Positions 5,367 through 11,650 of a stretch of 64,000 nucleotides of DNA are shown in pieces; the first letter of the stretch is position 1, and every line of letters starts with the position of its first letter. A model generated the notes under the pieces. The model worked only from the letters and a program-made list of their open reading frames with translations. It was not told where the DNA came from and made no database searches. A program made the translations under genes and the position numbers. The DNA lies in NCBI GenBank assembly GCA_900302705.1, contig OUUY01000086.1, positions 1 through 64,000 on the forward strand, given 5' to 3'. Origin of the DNA: Candidatus Sulfobium mesophilum. GTDB taxonomy: Bacteria > Nitrospirota > Thermodesulfovibrionia > Thermodesulfovibrionales > UBA6898.

Positions 5367-6572
5367 TTAGATCATTTCTTTCAATCTTTCAGCCACAGCA
5401 TCGATGAATTCTTCGGTATGCGCGTATCTTGAAACCTTCGGTTCTGCAATAAGCATCAGGTCCTTTGTCAGGATCCCGCTCTCAGCCGTTTCGATGACCG
5501 CCTTTTCCAGGGTGCGGGCGAAGTTGACAACGTCAGGGGTATTGTCCATCTCGCCACGTTTGGCTATTGCGCCCGTCCATGCAAATATCGAAGCTATTGA
5601 ATTTGTAGATGTCGGATTCCCCTTGAGATGCTCGTAGTAATGTCTCACGATCGTTCCATGGGCTGCCTCAAATTCGTATTTCCCGTCAGGTGATACCAGG
5701 ACCGATGACATAAGGCCAAGACTGCCGAAACCCGTGGCCACCATGTCCGACATAACGTCTCCGTCATAATTCATGCAGGCCCAGAGCATGCCGCCTTCGG
5801 ACTTCAGGACCTGGGCAACGGCATCGTCGATGAGCAGACATCTGTATTTTATCCCTGCCTCATCAAGCTTTTCGCCTGCCTTGCCTACCTCCTCCGCAAA
5901 AATATCCCTGAAAAAGCCGTGATAAATCTTAGATATCGTATCCTTGGTGCCAAACCAAAGATCAATCTTTTCACCCAGCGCATAATTTATACACGCCTTG
6001 GCAAAGCTCCTGATAGAGGCCTCAGAATTATGCATTCCCATAACAACGCCGCTGCTCTTAAAATCATGTATCTTCAGGACTTTTTTTTCTCCCCCGTCCG
6101 AAGGAGAAAAAACAATTTCGGCCCTGCCCGGAGCATCGATGACCATTTCTGAGCATTTATAGATGTCACCGTAGGCATGACGGCCTATCACAATCGGCTT
6201 CCTCCATGCGCGCACTGCCGGCGGGATGTTTTGAAGTATAATCGGCTTTCTGAAGACCGTGCCGTCCAGAAGAGACCGTATCGTTCCGTTGGGGCTCTTC
6301 CACTGCTGCTTGAGGTTATATTCCTTCACCCTTGCGGCATTTGGCGTAATGGTAGCGCACTTAACCCCGACTCCGGTTTCCTTGATAGCCTCTGCCGCAT
6401 CGATGGTCACTTTGTCTTCCGTCTCGTCTCTATGTTTAATGCCCAGGTCAAAATACCGTACAGCGATATCAAGGAAAGGGGAGAGAAGCTTATCTTTAAT
6501 CATGTGCCAGATAATCCTGGCCATTTCGTCGCCATCCATCTCGACAATCGGATTTTTCACTTTTATAGCCAC
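5367..6572 (-). CDS. icd: NADP-dependent isocitrate dehydrogenase, eukaryotic-type (type II)
   Basis: Oxidises isocitrate to 2-oxoglutarate with NADP in the TCA cycle. The 401-aa sequence resembles the homodimeric cytosolic/mitochondrial class: substrate loop SPNGTIR with the Arg-rich region following, metal-binding DDAVAQ and NYDGDVMSD, and [10 protein letters not shown] near residue 310 where the Arg-His pair contacts the NADP 2'-phosphate. This differs from the E. coli type I enzyme. The start codon is GTG at 6572 behind a GGGGG site. A promoter with TTGACA-N17-TAAAAT lies upstream. Confidence 0.93.
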
Positions 6573-6750: not shown

Positions 6751-7113
6751 ATGTCTGAAAAGTGGTATGAAGGCCTTCCGGATGATGCGTTTAAGACCGA
6801 GACCTCCAAAATGTATGAGAAGGCTGAAGCGCTAATAAGGGAGAAGCTTGACCAGGGGCTTGATTTCGACAGCGCCTGCGCAGCTGTGGAGATAACTGAT
6901 GAGCAACTTAGGAATAGTATCATCGAGGACATGCTAAAGGTACTGATTGCCGAGGAGCATTTCACAAAAAATGTCTCACTCGATAACATGGCAAAAAAAT
7001 TAGGCATCGAGGTTGCCCGTCTTGAAAAGGCCAAGACGGAAATGCTCGAAGATGTTAAAAATGCTTCTATAAAGGCTTTTTATAATAGTCTAGAGCGCCG
7101 TGACATGAACTAA
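6751..7113 (+). CDS. Small alpha-helical hypothetical protein heading a repeat-protein operon
   Basis: I do not recognise this 120-aa protein. It is highly charged and predicted helical throughout, with no signal peptide, cysteine cluster or membrane segment. The C-terminal third (VSLDNMAKKLGIEVARLEKA) looks like a short helix-turn-helix: two helices around a Gly turn, which would suit a regulator, but this is inference. An AAAGGAG site seven bases before the ATG supports the start. Its stop lies one base before the ribosome binding site of the first repeat protein, so the three genes 6751-8359 are almost certainly cotranscribed. Confidence 0.75.
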   Translation: MSEKWYEGLPDDAFKTETSKMYEKAEALIREKLDQGLDFDSACAAVEITDEQLRNSIIEDMLKVLIAEEHFTKNVSLDNMAKKLGIEVARLEKAKTEMLEDVKNASIKAFYNSLERRDMN

Positions 7114-7124
7114 CAGGAGCAAAG

Positions 7125-7742
7125 ATCATAGATCTCCCATTAGAAGAAGGCACTGTTGTTATATACCCTGAAAGTAAGATGATAAAATCAGGCATGCTCT
7201 CCGAGGATTCCTTAGTGCAGGGAATATTTTTTAAAAAAGGCACTATCCTGGGCTTTGATGAAAATGGGAAGCTCTGGCGGTGCAGAATTTCGGGGACCAC
7301 AGTCATAAATGAACTGCACTGCATGGCCGGAAGCGAAGTGGAATTCTACCCTGAAGGGAACCTCCTTTCATTTATAACCGCCTCCGAGACGAAGTTAGGG
7401 GGTATATATGCCGCTGCGGAGTCTCTTGTCATGCTCCACCCAAATGGCAGTGTCTTTAAGTGCGATATAAGCCGTGGCACCGTCGTCGATGAGTACCCTG
7501 TGCTTGCCGGTAAGGATGTCTGTTTCTTTGAAAACGGCAGGTTGTCCGCATTTTATCTCTCCAAAGACCTTTTGATTGATGGGGTATTGTGTCCTGAGGG
7601 TTCCCGGGTCTGGCTGCGGAAAAATGGACGGTTCTCTGCATGTACTGCCGGCCATGACGTGGAAATACAGGACGTCCATTACAAAGCCGGAGAACTTATT
7701 GTCTTAAGAGAAGATGGGACCCTGGTCCACTTAAGCCCATGA
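7125..7742 (+). CDS. Protein built of 30-residue beta-type repeats, copy A; probable AUC start
   Basis: Nearly the whole protein (about 205 aa) is a tandem repeat of 30 residues with the skeleton G-hydrophobic-x-C/A-x-x-G-x-x-V-x-F-x-x-x-G-x-L-x-x-C/x-x-(I/L)-x-x-D-x-V-x-x. Five full copies run from about 7218 to 7667, with partial copies at each end. The pattern of alternating hydrophobics and turn glycines suggests stacked beta hairpins, loosely like MORN/YwqK repeats, but I recognise no family. No signal peptide. The first in-frame ATG is at 7179, yet repeat sequence continues upstream to 7143; an AGGAG site (7115-7119) stands five bases before ATC at 7125 and eight before ATA at 7128, and no ATG, GTG or TTG exists in that stretch. 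Its stop overlaps the next start as ATGA. Confidence 0.7.
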   Translation: MIDLPLEEGTVVIYPESKMIKSGMLSEDSLVQGIFFKKGTILGFDENGKLWRCRISGTTVINELHCMAGSEVEFYPEGNLLSFITASETKLGGIYAAAESLVMLHPNGSVFKCDISRGTVVDEYPVLAGKDVCFFENGRLSAFYLSKDLLIDGVLCPEGSRVWLRKNGRFSACTAGHDVEIQDVHYKAGELIVLREDGTLVHLSP

Positions 7743-8359
7743 AAATTCTCCTCTACCCTGATGGCAAACTGAGGGGTAGACTTCTTGAGAAAGACGAAGA
7801 GGTTGGAGCTATCAAATGCAAAGCCGACACGTGGGTGTGGTTCCATAAAAGCGGCAGTGTCTCAAGTATTGTGCCCATATCAGACGTAGTTATCTACAGC
7901 GTAGCCTGCAAGGCAAACAGCAGGGTCTATTTCTATGACTGCGGCAGCCTTATGAAGTGCAACCTGCCCAGTGACGGCATAGTAAAAGGCATCCCGGTAA
8001 GGTCGGATACGTTTATCCTGTTTCATGATAGTGAGGCCATTTCTGCCTGCAGGCTTTTGGAAAATATCCTTTATCAGGGCATCCAATGCAAAGGGGGTTG
8101 CTGGATCGGATTCTATGGCGACGGAAGACTCAAGAGGTGCTTCATCGCAGAGGACGTGATGATCTCGGGCGTGATGCTCAGGCATGGGGCATGGGCATCC
8201 TTCCACAGAACGGGGATGCTCGATAACTACCGGCTCACGGAAGATGCTGTTGTCCAGGGAGTGGAATGCCTCTCCGGAGATATACTGCTGTTTAGCGAAG
8301 ATGGAAGGCTGTCCGAAAGACTGAAAAAGCCTGATCCTCCAAAGGAAATCGGAAAGTGA
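7739..8359 (+). CDS. Protein built of 30-residue beta-type repeats, copy B
   Basis: A 206-aa paralogue of the preceding gene, with the same 30-residue period: five full repeats between about residues 24 and 173 and partial copies at the ends. Conserved positions are the aromatic-x-x-x-G-x-L turn, a Cys a few residues later, an acidic residue before the last strand, and G-(I/V)-x-C-(K/x) at the repeat junction. The start ATG overlaps the stop of copy A (ATGA), so translation is coupled. The two genes are diverged at the residue level but keep the same repeat register, which points to an old duplication or a split of one longer gene. A short Pro/Lys tail ends the protein. Function unknown; cytoplasmic by lack of a signal peptide. 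Confidence 0.8.
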   Translation: MKILLYPDGKLRGRLLEKDEEVGAIKCKADTWVWFHKSGSVSSIVPISDVVIYSVACKANSRVYFYDCGSLMKCNLPSDGIVKGIPVRSDTFILFHDSEAISACRLLENILYQGIQCKGGCWIGFYGDGRLKRCFIAEDVMISGVMLRHGAWASFHRTGMLDNYRLTEDAVVQGVECLSGDILLFSEDGRLSERLKKPDPPKEIGK

Positions 8360-8425: not shown

Positions 8426-8881
8426 TTATCGCGTCCATATCGTTTTCCCACCGATCAACGGTACGCCAATAAAGCCTCTCACCTTTAATTGATTGGGGGA
8501 AAGGAGTGTCAACTCGCCGCTGTAAGTCTTGCCGTTGTCGGAGTTGTATATTTTCCCCCTTTTCCAGGAATTATCACCGCTACCCACGAAGCCAAGAAGG
8601 ATGGGCAGCCCGATAAGAGGTTTTTTTCTCAGTTCCGGGTCCGGGTTGTTATGATCCAGCATCGGCGTGCCCGGTGTCCCTTCTGTTGAACCAGCAGGAT
8701 AATGCGGTTCCATCAACCAAACAATTTTGCCGCAGTACTTTATCCCGCATTTATAGATTTCTATCTTCGCGTCTCTCTCCTGGGTATTCCACAGCCCAAC
8801 GATATCGTCTGGACTCGCGGCATAGGCAGTTGCCATGACCAGCAATATGACCATGAAAGCCATAAACATCCATCGCTTCAT
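8426..8881 (-). CDS. DUF2147 secreted protein, copy 1
   Basis: A 151-aa protein with a clear Sec signal peptide (Lys-Arg start, hydrophobic core, cleavage near AYA-ASPDD about residue 22). The mature part carries the DUF2147 pattern: IVGLWNT near the start, two cysteines in YKCGIKYCGKIVW, LDHNNPDPELR in the middle, the GKIYNSDNGKTYSG segment, and a C-terminal RGFIGVPLIGG strand. The family is lipocalin-like and periplasmic; its ligand is unknown. A second copy with the same motifs lies at 52553-53059. Confidence 0.88.
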   Translation of the reverse strand: MKRWMFMAFMVILLVMATAYAASPDDIVGLWNTQERDAKIEIYKCGIKYCGKIVWLMEPHYPAGSTEGTPGTPMLDHNNPDPELRKKPLIGLPILLGFVGSGDNSWKRGKIYNSDNGKTYSGELTLLSPNQLKVRGFIGVPLIGGKTIWTR

Positions 8882-9063
8882 GTCGTCTCAGCTAGCAGGC
8901 TATTGATGTTAGTACTGCATTATCAAATGTAGTCTTCAATTTGTCAAAGTATATCACGCGCACACATTTCGGGAAGAGCCTGCTGGCAACCGGCATCGGT
9001 ATGTTATAGGCCTGGCCAGCGCAGCGTCATGAGCGTGTACGTTACTAGTGGTCGGTCACGGCT

Positions 9064-9618
9064 TCAGCAGAAGTTTTCCGTTATGTAGACCTTCCCGTTT
9101 TTAATAATGACACCTATGCCTTGGGACCTAAAGACAGGCTGAAGGATATTTTCCCTGTGCCCGGTGCTTTTCATCCAGCCCCTTACTGTCGAGCGGGCAA
9201 TCTCCTCAAGACTGTTCCAGTCGTAATGCGCCTTTTCGTTAACGTATATGATTGACGAGTACAGATTATTGCAAAATATGTTTTCCGCCCCTTCGCATAT
9301 GCTTTGACCAACGCGCACCCGGCAGACAAAACCTTTCTTTTTATATCGCACTAGAAAGTCCTCACCCTCGGGGTTTAGATGCGAGAAGTAATTTCTCTCG
9401 GCCATATCCTTGCTGTGGTCCCTGGCAATGGCGCAGAGCTTTTTGTCCAGTGCCAAGGGCCTGAGTCCCTCTTTTTGGCGTTCAATGTTGATCAGTTCAT
9501 GGATCCTTATCTCCAACTCTTTCGTATCTATACGCGGTCTGATATGTTCAGCTAAAGCTGGAGAAGCTATAATAAGCAGAACAGCTATTAATAAAAGGAG
9601 TATTCCTCTTTTTGGCAT
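9064..9618 (-). CDS. Secreted CAP-superfamily (SCP/PR1-like) protein
   Basis: 184 aa with an N-terminal signal peptide ending near SPALA (about residue 23). The CAP domain follows: LINIERQKEGLRPL helix, ARDHSKDMAERNYFSHLNP with the conserved His, the Glu in CEGAENIF and the GHRENIL signature near residue 155, then the G-IGV beta strand. The two His and Glu residues are the usual cavity ligands. Bacterial CAP proteins are extracellular or periplasmic; some act in sporulation or cell-wall contexts, but no function can be assigned here. Two or more Cys may form disulfides. Divergent from the next gene. Confidence 0.88.
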   Translation of the reverse strand: MPKRGILLLLIAVLLIIASPALAEHIRPRIDTKELEIRIHELINIERQKEGLRPLALDKKLCAIARDHSKDMAERNYFSHLNPEGEDFLVRYKKKGFVCRVRVGQSICEGAENIFCNNLYSSIIYVNEKAHYDWNSLEEIARSTVRGWMKSTGHRENILQPVFRSQGIGVIIKNGKVYITENFC

Positions 9619-10144: not shown

Positions 10145-10846
10145 CTAATTCGTGTACCCGAAAAACCTCATCATATCACCCGCGATCCTATCAAAATCCC
10201 TATTCATCTCATTAGACCACTCCTCCTTTGGAGGAAGATCAAAGAATGGGTTTGCGTTGACTTTTCTTACTGCGAATTCCCTCTCCTTGAGCTTTATGCC
10301 GGAAAAAAACTCGAGCCTGTTGTGGATATCTTCTTTCCCGATCTCCTCTATCTTTATGATCATCTTATTATCCGCCGGCACCTTCTTTAGTCCCTCGAGG
10401 GCCTTTCTGTTTCTGTAGACCCATATCCAGGCATTTTTCTGAAGGGCCGACATTGAATTCCAGATGGAGAAATATGGATCCTTGCGGGGAGGAACAGTCC
10501 CAACGATATCCTGCTCATGCCATTTGCGGCTCAGCGCGGATCTCACGAAATCTTTTCCGTTCCTTATCGAAAGAATGATTCTCACCGAGGGGTCAAGTAC
10601 GTATAGGGCATCAATAAAATGTATGTACAGGTTTGAAGAATCGATGAAGGTGTCATGGTCTATTCCCTGGTGAAGATCAAGCATCACCTCGATCCTTTTT
10701 TCGAGACTGTGAAATGGATCTGAAAAGGGGTCAGACTTCAGAAAATATTTATCGACAATGTAGCGCACCCTGAACTCATGGTGGCCGTGGAACATCTTAG
10801 TCAAGGTAGCCGTCCCGCACCTGCCTGTGCCGGTAATGATTAACAT
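10145..10846 (-). CDS. Sulfotransferase-family protein
   Basis: 233 aa with the two PAPS-binding landmarks of sulfotransferases: an N-terminal 5'-phosphosulfate loop GTGRCGT (residues 5-11) and, near residue 90, RIILSIRNGKDFVRSALSR, where Arg and Ser would contact the 3'-phosphate. The rest is variable, as usual for bacterial members. A PAPS-dependent sulfate transfer to a glycan, lipid or other small acceptor is inferred; P-loop kinases are the alternative reading of the first loop, but the RNP-like second motif favours sulfotransferase. It is transcribed alone. Confidence 0.75.
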   Translation of the reverse strand: MLIITGTGRCGTATLTKMFHGHHEFRVRYIVDKYFLKSDPFSDPFHSLEKRIEVMLDLHQGIDHDTFIDSSNLYIHFIDALYVLDPSVRIILSIRNGKDFVRSALSRKWHEQDIVGTVPPRKDPYFSIWNSMSALQKNAWIWVYRNRKALEGLKKVPADNKMIIKIEEIGKEDIHNRLEFFSGIKLKEREFAVRKVNANPFFDLPPKEEWSNEMNRDFDRIAGDMMRFFGYTN

Positions 10847-10898: not shown

Positions 10899-10993
10899 CT
10901 TCGAAAAACTGTCACTAAATGCTTACGTGCAAGGCTACACGTTATCCTGGAGTTAATGTTAATATATGCAGATTCCAAAAGGAGAAATACTGC

Positions 10994-11650
10994 ATGGGTA
11001 AAGAGGAAGAAATTAAATCAAGACTGTTTCAGTCGATCATCCATTACGTGAGGATGAACCACGCAAAGGATATAGACAAGGCATATGAATATTTCTGGGA
11101 GGAGCAGCAACCGGACGAAATCATGAGCGGAACCGCACTCGAACTTGGCTTTCACAACTTCGAAGACTGGCTCCTTTTTGACTACAAGGCAAACGAGGAA
11201 AAAGAGAGCTTCATCGACATCTACATGAAAGATAACAGGGAATTGAAGGCGGAAGAGCGCGCGGTCCTCGAAAAGATAAAAGACGCACTGTTGAGCCTTT
11301 ATGAAGTCATGTCGGTCTCGAAGGATAAAAGGGTTCTGATCAAAGACCTCCTGATAGGAGGTGAATTCTCTCTGCGTGACAGGAACCTCACCAGAGGGCT
11401 CAAAAAAGGGGATATCTTCGCTACAAGGCTTCTAACCCTTGACGGCAATACTGTCATGAGCGGATGCGTCTATCCCTATTCCGCGGACCGGAAAAAATCA
11501 GTACTCAACAACATCGACAAACAGTTCAAACGCTATGTCAGAAATGTAAACCCCGAAGGCGCCATGAAAGACTATCTGAGGGACTACGGAGATATTTTCA
11601 ACCTCATCTGGTTGCACTTCATCCTTGACGCTGCGCAGGAGCAGGCATAA
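10994..11650 (+). CDS. Hypothetical protein, 218 aa
   Basis: I do not recognise a named family. The protein is mixed helical and charged, without signal peptide or membrane segment. Residues about 100-165 (LKAEERAVLEKIKDALLSLYEV, then a LIKDLLIGGEFSLRD stretch and KKGDIFATRLLTLDG) resemble a beta-rich module seen in hypothetical proteins that carry SEC-C metal-binding tails, but no SEC-C cysteine cluster is present. The start at 10994 follows AGGAG by nine bases; an in-frame ATG at 10919 has no site. It ends just before a strong terminator and is convergent with the ferredoxin gene. Confidence 0.7.
   Translation: MGKEEEIKSRLFQSIIHYVRMNHAKDIDKAYEYFWEEQQPDEIMSGTALELGFHNFEDWLLFDYKANEEKESFIDIYMKDNRELKAEERAVLEKIKDALLSLYEVMSVSKDKRVLIKDLLIGGEFSLRDRNLTRGLKKGDIFATRLLTLDGNTVMSGCVYPYSADRKKSVLNNIDKQFKRYVRNVNPEGAMKDYLRDYGDIFNLIWLHFILDAAQEQA

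Follow-up and report, generated by a model that had tools for sequence, protein, structure and literature searches.

Genes B and C of Candidatus Sulfobium mesophilum encode a conserved pair of proteins built of lengthened MORN_2/YwqK-type repeats

Genes B and C, which follow gene A in a 64,000-nucleotide stretch of Candidatus Sulfobium mesophilum DNA (the whole of which is called the window here), encode a conserved, clade-limited pair of repeat proteins, and their strictly 30-residue unit is a lengthened variant of a known repeat, MORN_2/YwqK (PF07661). Repeats of the MORN_2 type occur widely in bacteria and are little understood. Our preferred reading, to which we give a probability of about 0.62, is that B and C are soluble cytosolic paralogues made of stacked repeats of the MORN_2/YwqK type and that the two proteins would serve jointly as a protein-interaction scaffold.

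Organization of the locus

The features of the locus are collected in Table 1. A first-pass annotation, made from the DNA letters of the window, had described an operon in which a helical protein is followed by two repeat proteins with an ATGA overlap. This layout was borne out by the open reading frames and the sequence, C starting at the ATG within the ATGA that closes B, and the operon holds up as well, the survey of other genomes proposed in that annotation having found the same three-gene order there. B and C would be expected on the same transcript as A. The 30-residue period is also present in the B and C orthologues of related genomes, and dN/dS was 0.10–0.26 in the orthologue comparisons where synonymous sites were unsaturated; these two observations mark A, B, and C as real genes under purifying selection. 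The neighboring genes scanned with Pfam are icd, DUF2147, CAP, and cyclophilin-like genes and an unnamed conserved gene, and no RNA families were found in the region.

Table 1. Coordinates of the features of the A-B-C locus in the window
Feature	Position	Strand	Description	Evidence
Gene A	6751-7113	+	120-aa all-helical cytosolic protein	ORF, conservation, phylum survey, AlphaFold2
Gene B	7125-7742	+	~205 aa, seven 30-residue elongated MORN_2-like units	period, orthologues, MORN_2/YwqK profile match
Gene C	7739-8359	+	206 aa, one partial and six full 30-residue units, B paralogue	period, orthologues, tree, MORN_2/YwqK profile match
ATGA overlap (B stop / C start)	7739-7742	+		sequence
AACAGGAG	7112-7119	+	resembles a ribosome-binding site, lies at the stop codon of A	sequence
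Isocitrate dehydrogenase, icd	5367-6572	-	divergent neighbor, marks the conserved locus	Pfam Iso_dh, synteny

The start codon of B is uncertain. In B, the open frame reaches back to about position 7125, where the repeats and the conserved N-terminus (IIDLPLEEG...) begin, 54 bases ahead of the ATG at 7179, and no ATG, GTG, or TTG is present at this conserved start; a start at ATG 7179 would remove the first half repeat of the protein. ATC 7125 sits five bases after AACAGGAG, which would be the right spacing, and the candidate start codons are ATC 7125, ATA 7128, and ATG 7179. The B orthologues start near the same place with GTG in the genomes G001, G002, and G003 and with TTG in G007 and G005; neither GTG nor TTG was found near that place in G012. 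The missing usual start codon may point either to a rare start codon or to reinitiation that is coupled to A. Production of B by frameshift or readthrough from A was rejected, because the frame relation of A and B varies among the genomes, the two genes sharing a frame only in G001, G002, and G003, and this variation makes a coupled start or reinitiation the likelier course.

The 30-residue repeat and its family

B and C have an exact 30-residue period with zero indels, and each of them finishes with a partial repeat. The self-similarity per position at offset 30 was 0.48 in B and 0.86 in C, compared with -1.05/-1.11 (sd 0.16) in shuffled sequences. Over 300 shuffles and all offsets, the highest score was -0.29 for B and -0.24 for C, far below the scores of the proteins themselves, and the period is therefore real. 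The earlier description of two tandem-repeat proteins consisting almost entirely of 30-residue units is thus confirmed, both by the comparison with shuffles and by the orthologues. A 60-residue super-period, suggested by B and C of the window, was dropped, as most C orthologues do not keep it.

The same annotation had assigned these repeats to no known family. This assignment has to be revised in view of the hhalign profiles, the Pfam match of the G003 orthologue, and the fold matches in a viral structure library: the repeats of B and C are divergent, lengthened MORN_2/YwqK repeats, not an unknown fold. The Pfam MORN_2 model (PF07661), with a cut-off of 29.6 bits, gave 18.6 bits for B and 16.4 bits for C of the window, both below the cut-off, as was the fused protein of G012 (27.7 bits); the C orthologue of G003, at 33.8 bits, lies above it. 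The profile used for comparison was built on genuine MORN_2/YwqK proteins, drawn from one Nitrospirota genome and from five plasmid records; each of these five carries the annotation YwqK family antitoxin. When this comparison, already suggested on the first reading, was run with hhalign, it was positive for C (probability 91.6%, score 45.5, 114 columns, in register) and for B and C combined (91.6%), and it gave a probability of only 16% for B (score 26.7). The helical protein A, included as a comparison, reached 0.2%, and the scores of 160 shuffles (whole-column and period-keeping, with 40 of the latter per protein) peaked at 17.2.

The C-profile alignment runs through five consecutive repeats with a gap of 6–7 residues in each, matching the excess of a 30-residue unit over a 23-residue one. 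We read each unit as a 23-residue MORN hairpin with a connector longer by about seven residues; in the crystal structures of MORN proteins, the 23 residues of the hairpin are divided between two strands of six, a turn of five, and a connector of six (PMC7725318). B and C resemble MORN_2/YwqK in the xxFxxNGxL hairpin, in the tandem arrays, and in the profile alignment over five repeats. They differ from it in a unit of exactly 30 residues, kept in their orthologues, instead of 22–23, in a connector with two additional short strands, in frequent Cys at repeat positions 6 and 23, in scores of the window proteins below the curated cut-off, and in having no toxin partner. Eukaryotic MORN1 of Trypanosoma, Toxoplasma, and Plasmodium has, as proposed here for B and C, elongated stacked hairpins with a five-residue turn that act as interaction and dimerization modules, but it is a eukaryotic protein with a 23-residue unit carrying a GxG motif and with 15 repeats per chain (PMC7725318). 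The GxG and YEGEW motifs of eukaryotic-type MORN are absent from the 30-position consensus of B and C. The 22-residue MORN_2 model of Pfam misses this longer subclass, including small secreted proteins in the same phylum. Sequence searches against solved structures gave no significant match for A, B, or C, and a match of B to lysine demethylase 4A (E = 0.016) looks like chance.

Structure prediction

The protein modeled was the G012 fusion, which has a natural joint between B and C. The mixed folding alignments placed the B rows on the C half, and therefore the depth of the model lies on the C half, the B half being represented by one sequence. The pLDDT was about 86–97 in the C half and about 76–87 in the B half, with a low-confidence joint at residues 184–214. 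Structure prediction had been proposed as a check on the first reading, and its outcome was mixed: four short strands were obtained in nearly every unit, at positions 11–14, 20–25, 29–1, and 4–6, together with low TM-scores. The strands 11–14 and 20–25 and the HENG turn match the published MORN hairpin, and the strands 29–1 and 4–6 lie in the longer connector. In the predicted architecture, each unit would be a MORN-type hairpin (strand 11–14, HENG turn, strand 20–25) followed by a connector with the two short strands, positions 1, 4, 12, 14, 20, 23, and 25 would make up the repeated core, and the units would stack into an elongated, rigid beta-sheet structure.

Matches of the fused model in the viral structure library were mostly MORN-repeat/YwqK proteins (best E = 7e-12), with low TM-scores. 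Among solved structures, the best-ranked PDB matches were the Rhs (Rhs/YD repeat) sheets and the single-layer sheets of OspA (E = 3e-7 to 5e-4), from which the model differs in showing about 10% identity, TM-scores of about 0.2 or below, and no sequence relation that we could find. The Foldseek TM-scores were low (0.09–0.25 over the query), as can occur with long flexible repeats. Because they are low throughout, the assignment to the MORN_2/YwqK family rests first on the profile comparison and second on the fold.

Gene A and the distribution of B and C

The AlphaFold2 model of A (mean pLDDT 77.7, pTM 0.64) has helices at residues 17–34, 39–44, 51–72, 77–84, and 88–118. The profile of A found matches in 99 of the 296 Nitrospirota genomes sampled, nearly always one in each and mostly without B and C, and A is present in all genomes of the window's own family (f1) in this sample except G010. 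The gene order in f1 is icd, A, a variable slot, the unnamed conserved gene (10919–11650 in the window), and hisC; the slot is occupied by B and C in some genera and by a LysM/L,D-transpeptidase gene, without B or C, in G009. A had been taken for a small possible regulator preceding the repeat proteins. It turns out not to be specific to the operon, and because it keeps its place between icd and hisC with or without B and C, it is not to be called their regulator. Pfam PCI matched A at 18.4 bits (E = 0.0025), below the cut-off of 22 bits, and this weak match recurred in five of seven A orthologues (best E = 0.002); HTH_25 was matched weakly in one of seven members of the A family (E = 0.013). 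No fold match of A reached E = 0.1, the weak ones including the DeoR DNA-binding domain (rmsd 1.1 over 43 columns, E = 2) and other HTH fragments. An internal duplication in A was also considered and was not above shuffles.

In the whole-genome set, A-B-C is found beside icd in G001, G002, G003, and G007. G005 keeps A and B together, its C lying on a separate contig next to the same downstream genes; in G012, A is followed by a single frame that fuses B with C; and in G010, a deletion ahead of B has removed all of A but its first residues. At this last place (L033:8900-9300), the start of A, MAEKWHG, runs into the N-terminus of B, and a frameshift follows. Strong B-type matches were obtained in 11 of the 231 genomes of the class, eight of them belonging to f1 and three to a second family, f14, and four further genomes of the 231 gave weak matches to short or secreted relatives. 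The three f14 genomes differ in arrangement: in G081, a C-type gene comes directly after a B-type gene, both at a distance from A; in G219, the order is A, a gene with FAD synthetase/riboflavin kinase domains, and a B-type gene; and in G310, a B-type gene is present and A is absent from the 12 kb read. B lacks a neighboring C in G010 and G219. The C relatives found in the named genome collection were from Nitrospirae metagenome assemblies, and no relatives were found on plasmids, in phages, or in viral contigs. In the tree, the B group and the C group were each supported at 100/100. B and C are old paralogues, and either their split predates the separation of f1 and f14 or the pair moved together between the families. 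They are an accessory pair that uses the locus of A.

Possible functions of B and C

The strongest hint of function came from an analysis in which, for each of the 30 repeat positions, variation between orthologues was separated from variation between repeats. Positions 3, 4, 9, 14, 18, and 20 are almost identical across all C repeats. Positions 11, 13, 21, and 22 are near-fixed between species and differ between repeats, in both B and C; along the C repeats, position 11 reads W R F W W I and position 22 reads S R A R N E, and along the B repeats, position 11 reads I E L D R F and position 13 reads G E M C W V. Such a pattern is as expected of a specific binding face, though it names no ligand, and the side chains at positions 11, 13, 21, and 22 would form a line that we read as a putative binding face. 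These repeat-specific, species-conserved positions lend weight to the earlier idea of a scaffold or binding surface. Hydropathy revealed no signal peptide or membrane segment in B and C, so that both probably act in the cytoplasm. Because their genes overlap and are fused in G012, the two proteins are likely to be in one complex. MORN repeats are known to mediate protein-protein contacts and to dimerize (PMC7725318), and for this reason we read B and C as a pair of protein-binding scaffolds that would act jointly and are probably bound to each other. This reading leaves room for a complex with A without needing one.

A closer involvement of A has been weighed as a rival explanation, in which A, B, and C form one complex and the repeat proteins cradle A and modulate its role, possibly in nucleic-acid binding. 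The analogy would be MORN4, which binds the tail of the myosin Myo3a; in a reference of PMC11595200, MORN4 is cited as a protein-binding module for a myosin tail. Such a complex would suit the A-B-C order in six f1 genomes (including the window and the fused G012), the A-B pair of G005, the short distance of a few bases from the end of A to the start of B, the position of A one gene upstream of a B-type gene in G219, which is of another family, and the weak fold matches of A to the DeoR DNA-binding domain and other HTH fragments. However, A occurs without B or C in most sampled genomes of the order, G010 retains B with A deleted, G081 retains B and C far from A, and none of the fold matches of A reaches E = 0.1; we consider this complex rather unlikely. 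It is also doubtful that the 30-residue repeat is an independent beta-solenoid resembling MORN_2 only through the short FxxNGxL motif. The period of 30 rather than 23, the marginal Pfam scores, the four strands per unit, which would allow a closed solenoid, and the Rhs and OspA sheets, not MORN, as the best solved-structure matches point that way, but the profile alignment stays in register through five repeats and scores far above the period-keeping shuffles, and the viral-library fold matches are mostly MORN.

An immunity or antitoxin-like role of B and C, as YwqK has for the LXG toxin YwqJ, is suggested by the nearest annotated relatives by profile, which are named YwqK family antitoxins; in Bacillus subtilis, ywqJ and ywqK are regarded as forming a toxin-antitoxin pair (PMC8321402). 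Since neither LXG nor any other toxin domain occurs among the neighboring genes scanned, this role is quite improbable, and the lack of a convincing defence-system match in PADLOC, the clade-limited distribution, and the lack of relatives on plasmids or phages also stand against it. Polymerization of B and C end to end into a bactofilin-like filament scaffold would be compatible with predicted beta-repeat rods that have no membrane anchors, yet bactofilin was matched neither in Pfam/NCBIfam nor among the best-ranked PDB matches and both proteins end in partial repeats, so we regard it as highly improbable.

Within the preferred reading of B and C as joint interaction scaffolds, a bolder and very tentative proposal is that they are the two halves of a recognition device, an elongated rod of about 14 MORN units that would read, with its repeat-specific face, one extended protein or peptide, maybe A or a target of A. 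If true, this rod would be a bacterial repeat-reading scaffold of hitherto undescribed type. The strict 30-residue unit, the old paralogue pair, the natural fusion, and the split between core and repeat-specific positions make B and C a clean system for questions of binding.

Secreted relatives and neighboring genes

Small proteins of about 110 aa, in which an N-terminus resembling a signal peptide is joined to about three 30-residue units, are encoded at L035:8805-9137, L034:422-754, L064:6350-6730, and L065:5376-5714, all on the minus strand. They come from f1 and other Nitrospirota families and represent a secreted branch of the 30-residue repeat. A longer protein, of at most 260 aa (L136:5893-6672, minus strand), has a signal-peptide-like start and about seven related repeats of about 30 residues (LAEDY...GLIVKAGTEFEQYESG). 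The C profile also found a protein whose start resembles a signal peptide and which carries tandem repeats of about 35 residues, CTLAHNANYLNARGHQVNCK (L066:5490-6131, minus strand); these repeats are very alike each other and were perhaps recently amplified.

In the window, the region 3' of C (8426-9618, minus strand) encodes a DUF2147 protein and a CAP-domain protein. The product of 10145-10846 (minus strand) has no Pfam match and is sulfotransferase-like by eye only (GTGRCGTATL motif); this gene adjoins C in G005, G007, and G012 and adjoins B in G010. The unnamed conserved protein (MGKEEEIKSRLFQ...) encoded at 10919-11650 and in L095-L104 likewise has no Pfam match, and its gene lies between A and hisC in most of the family.
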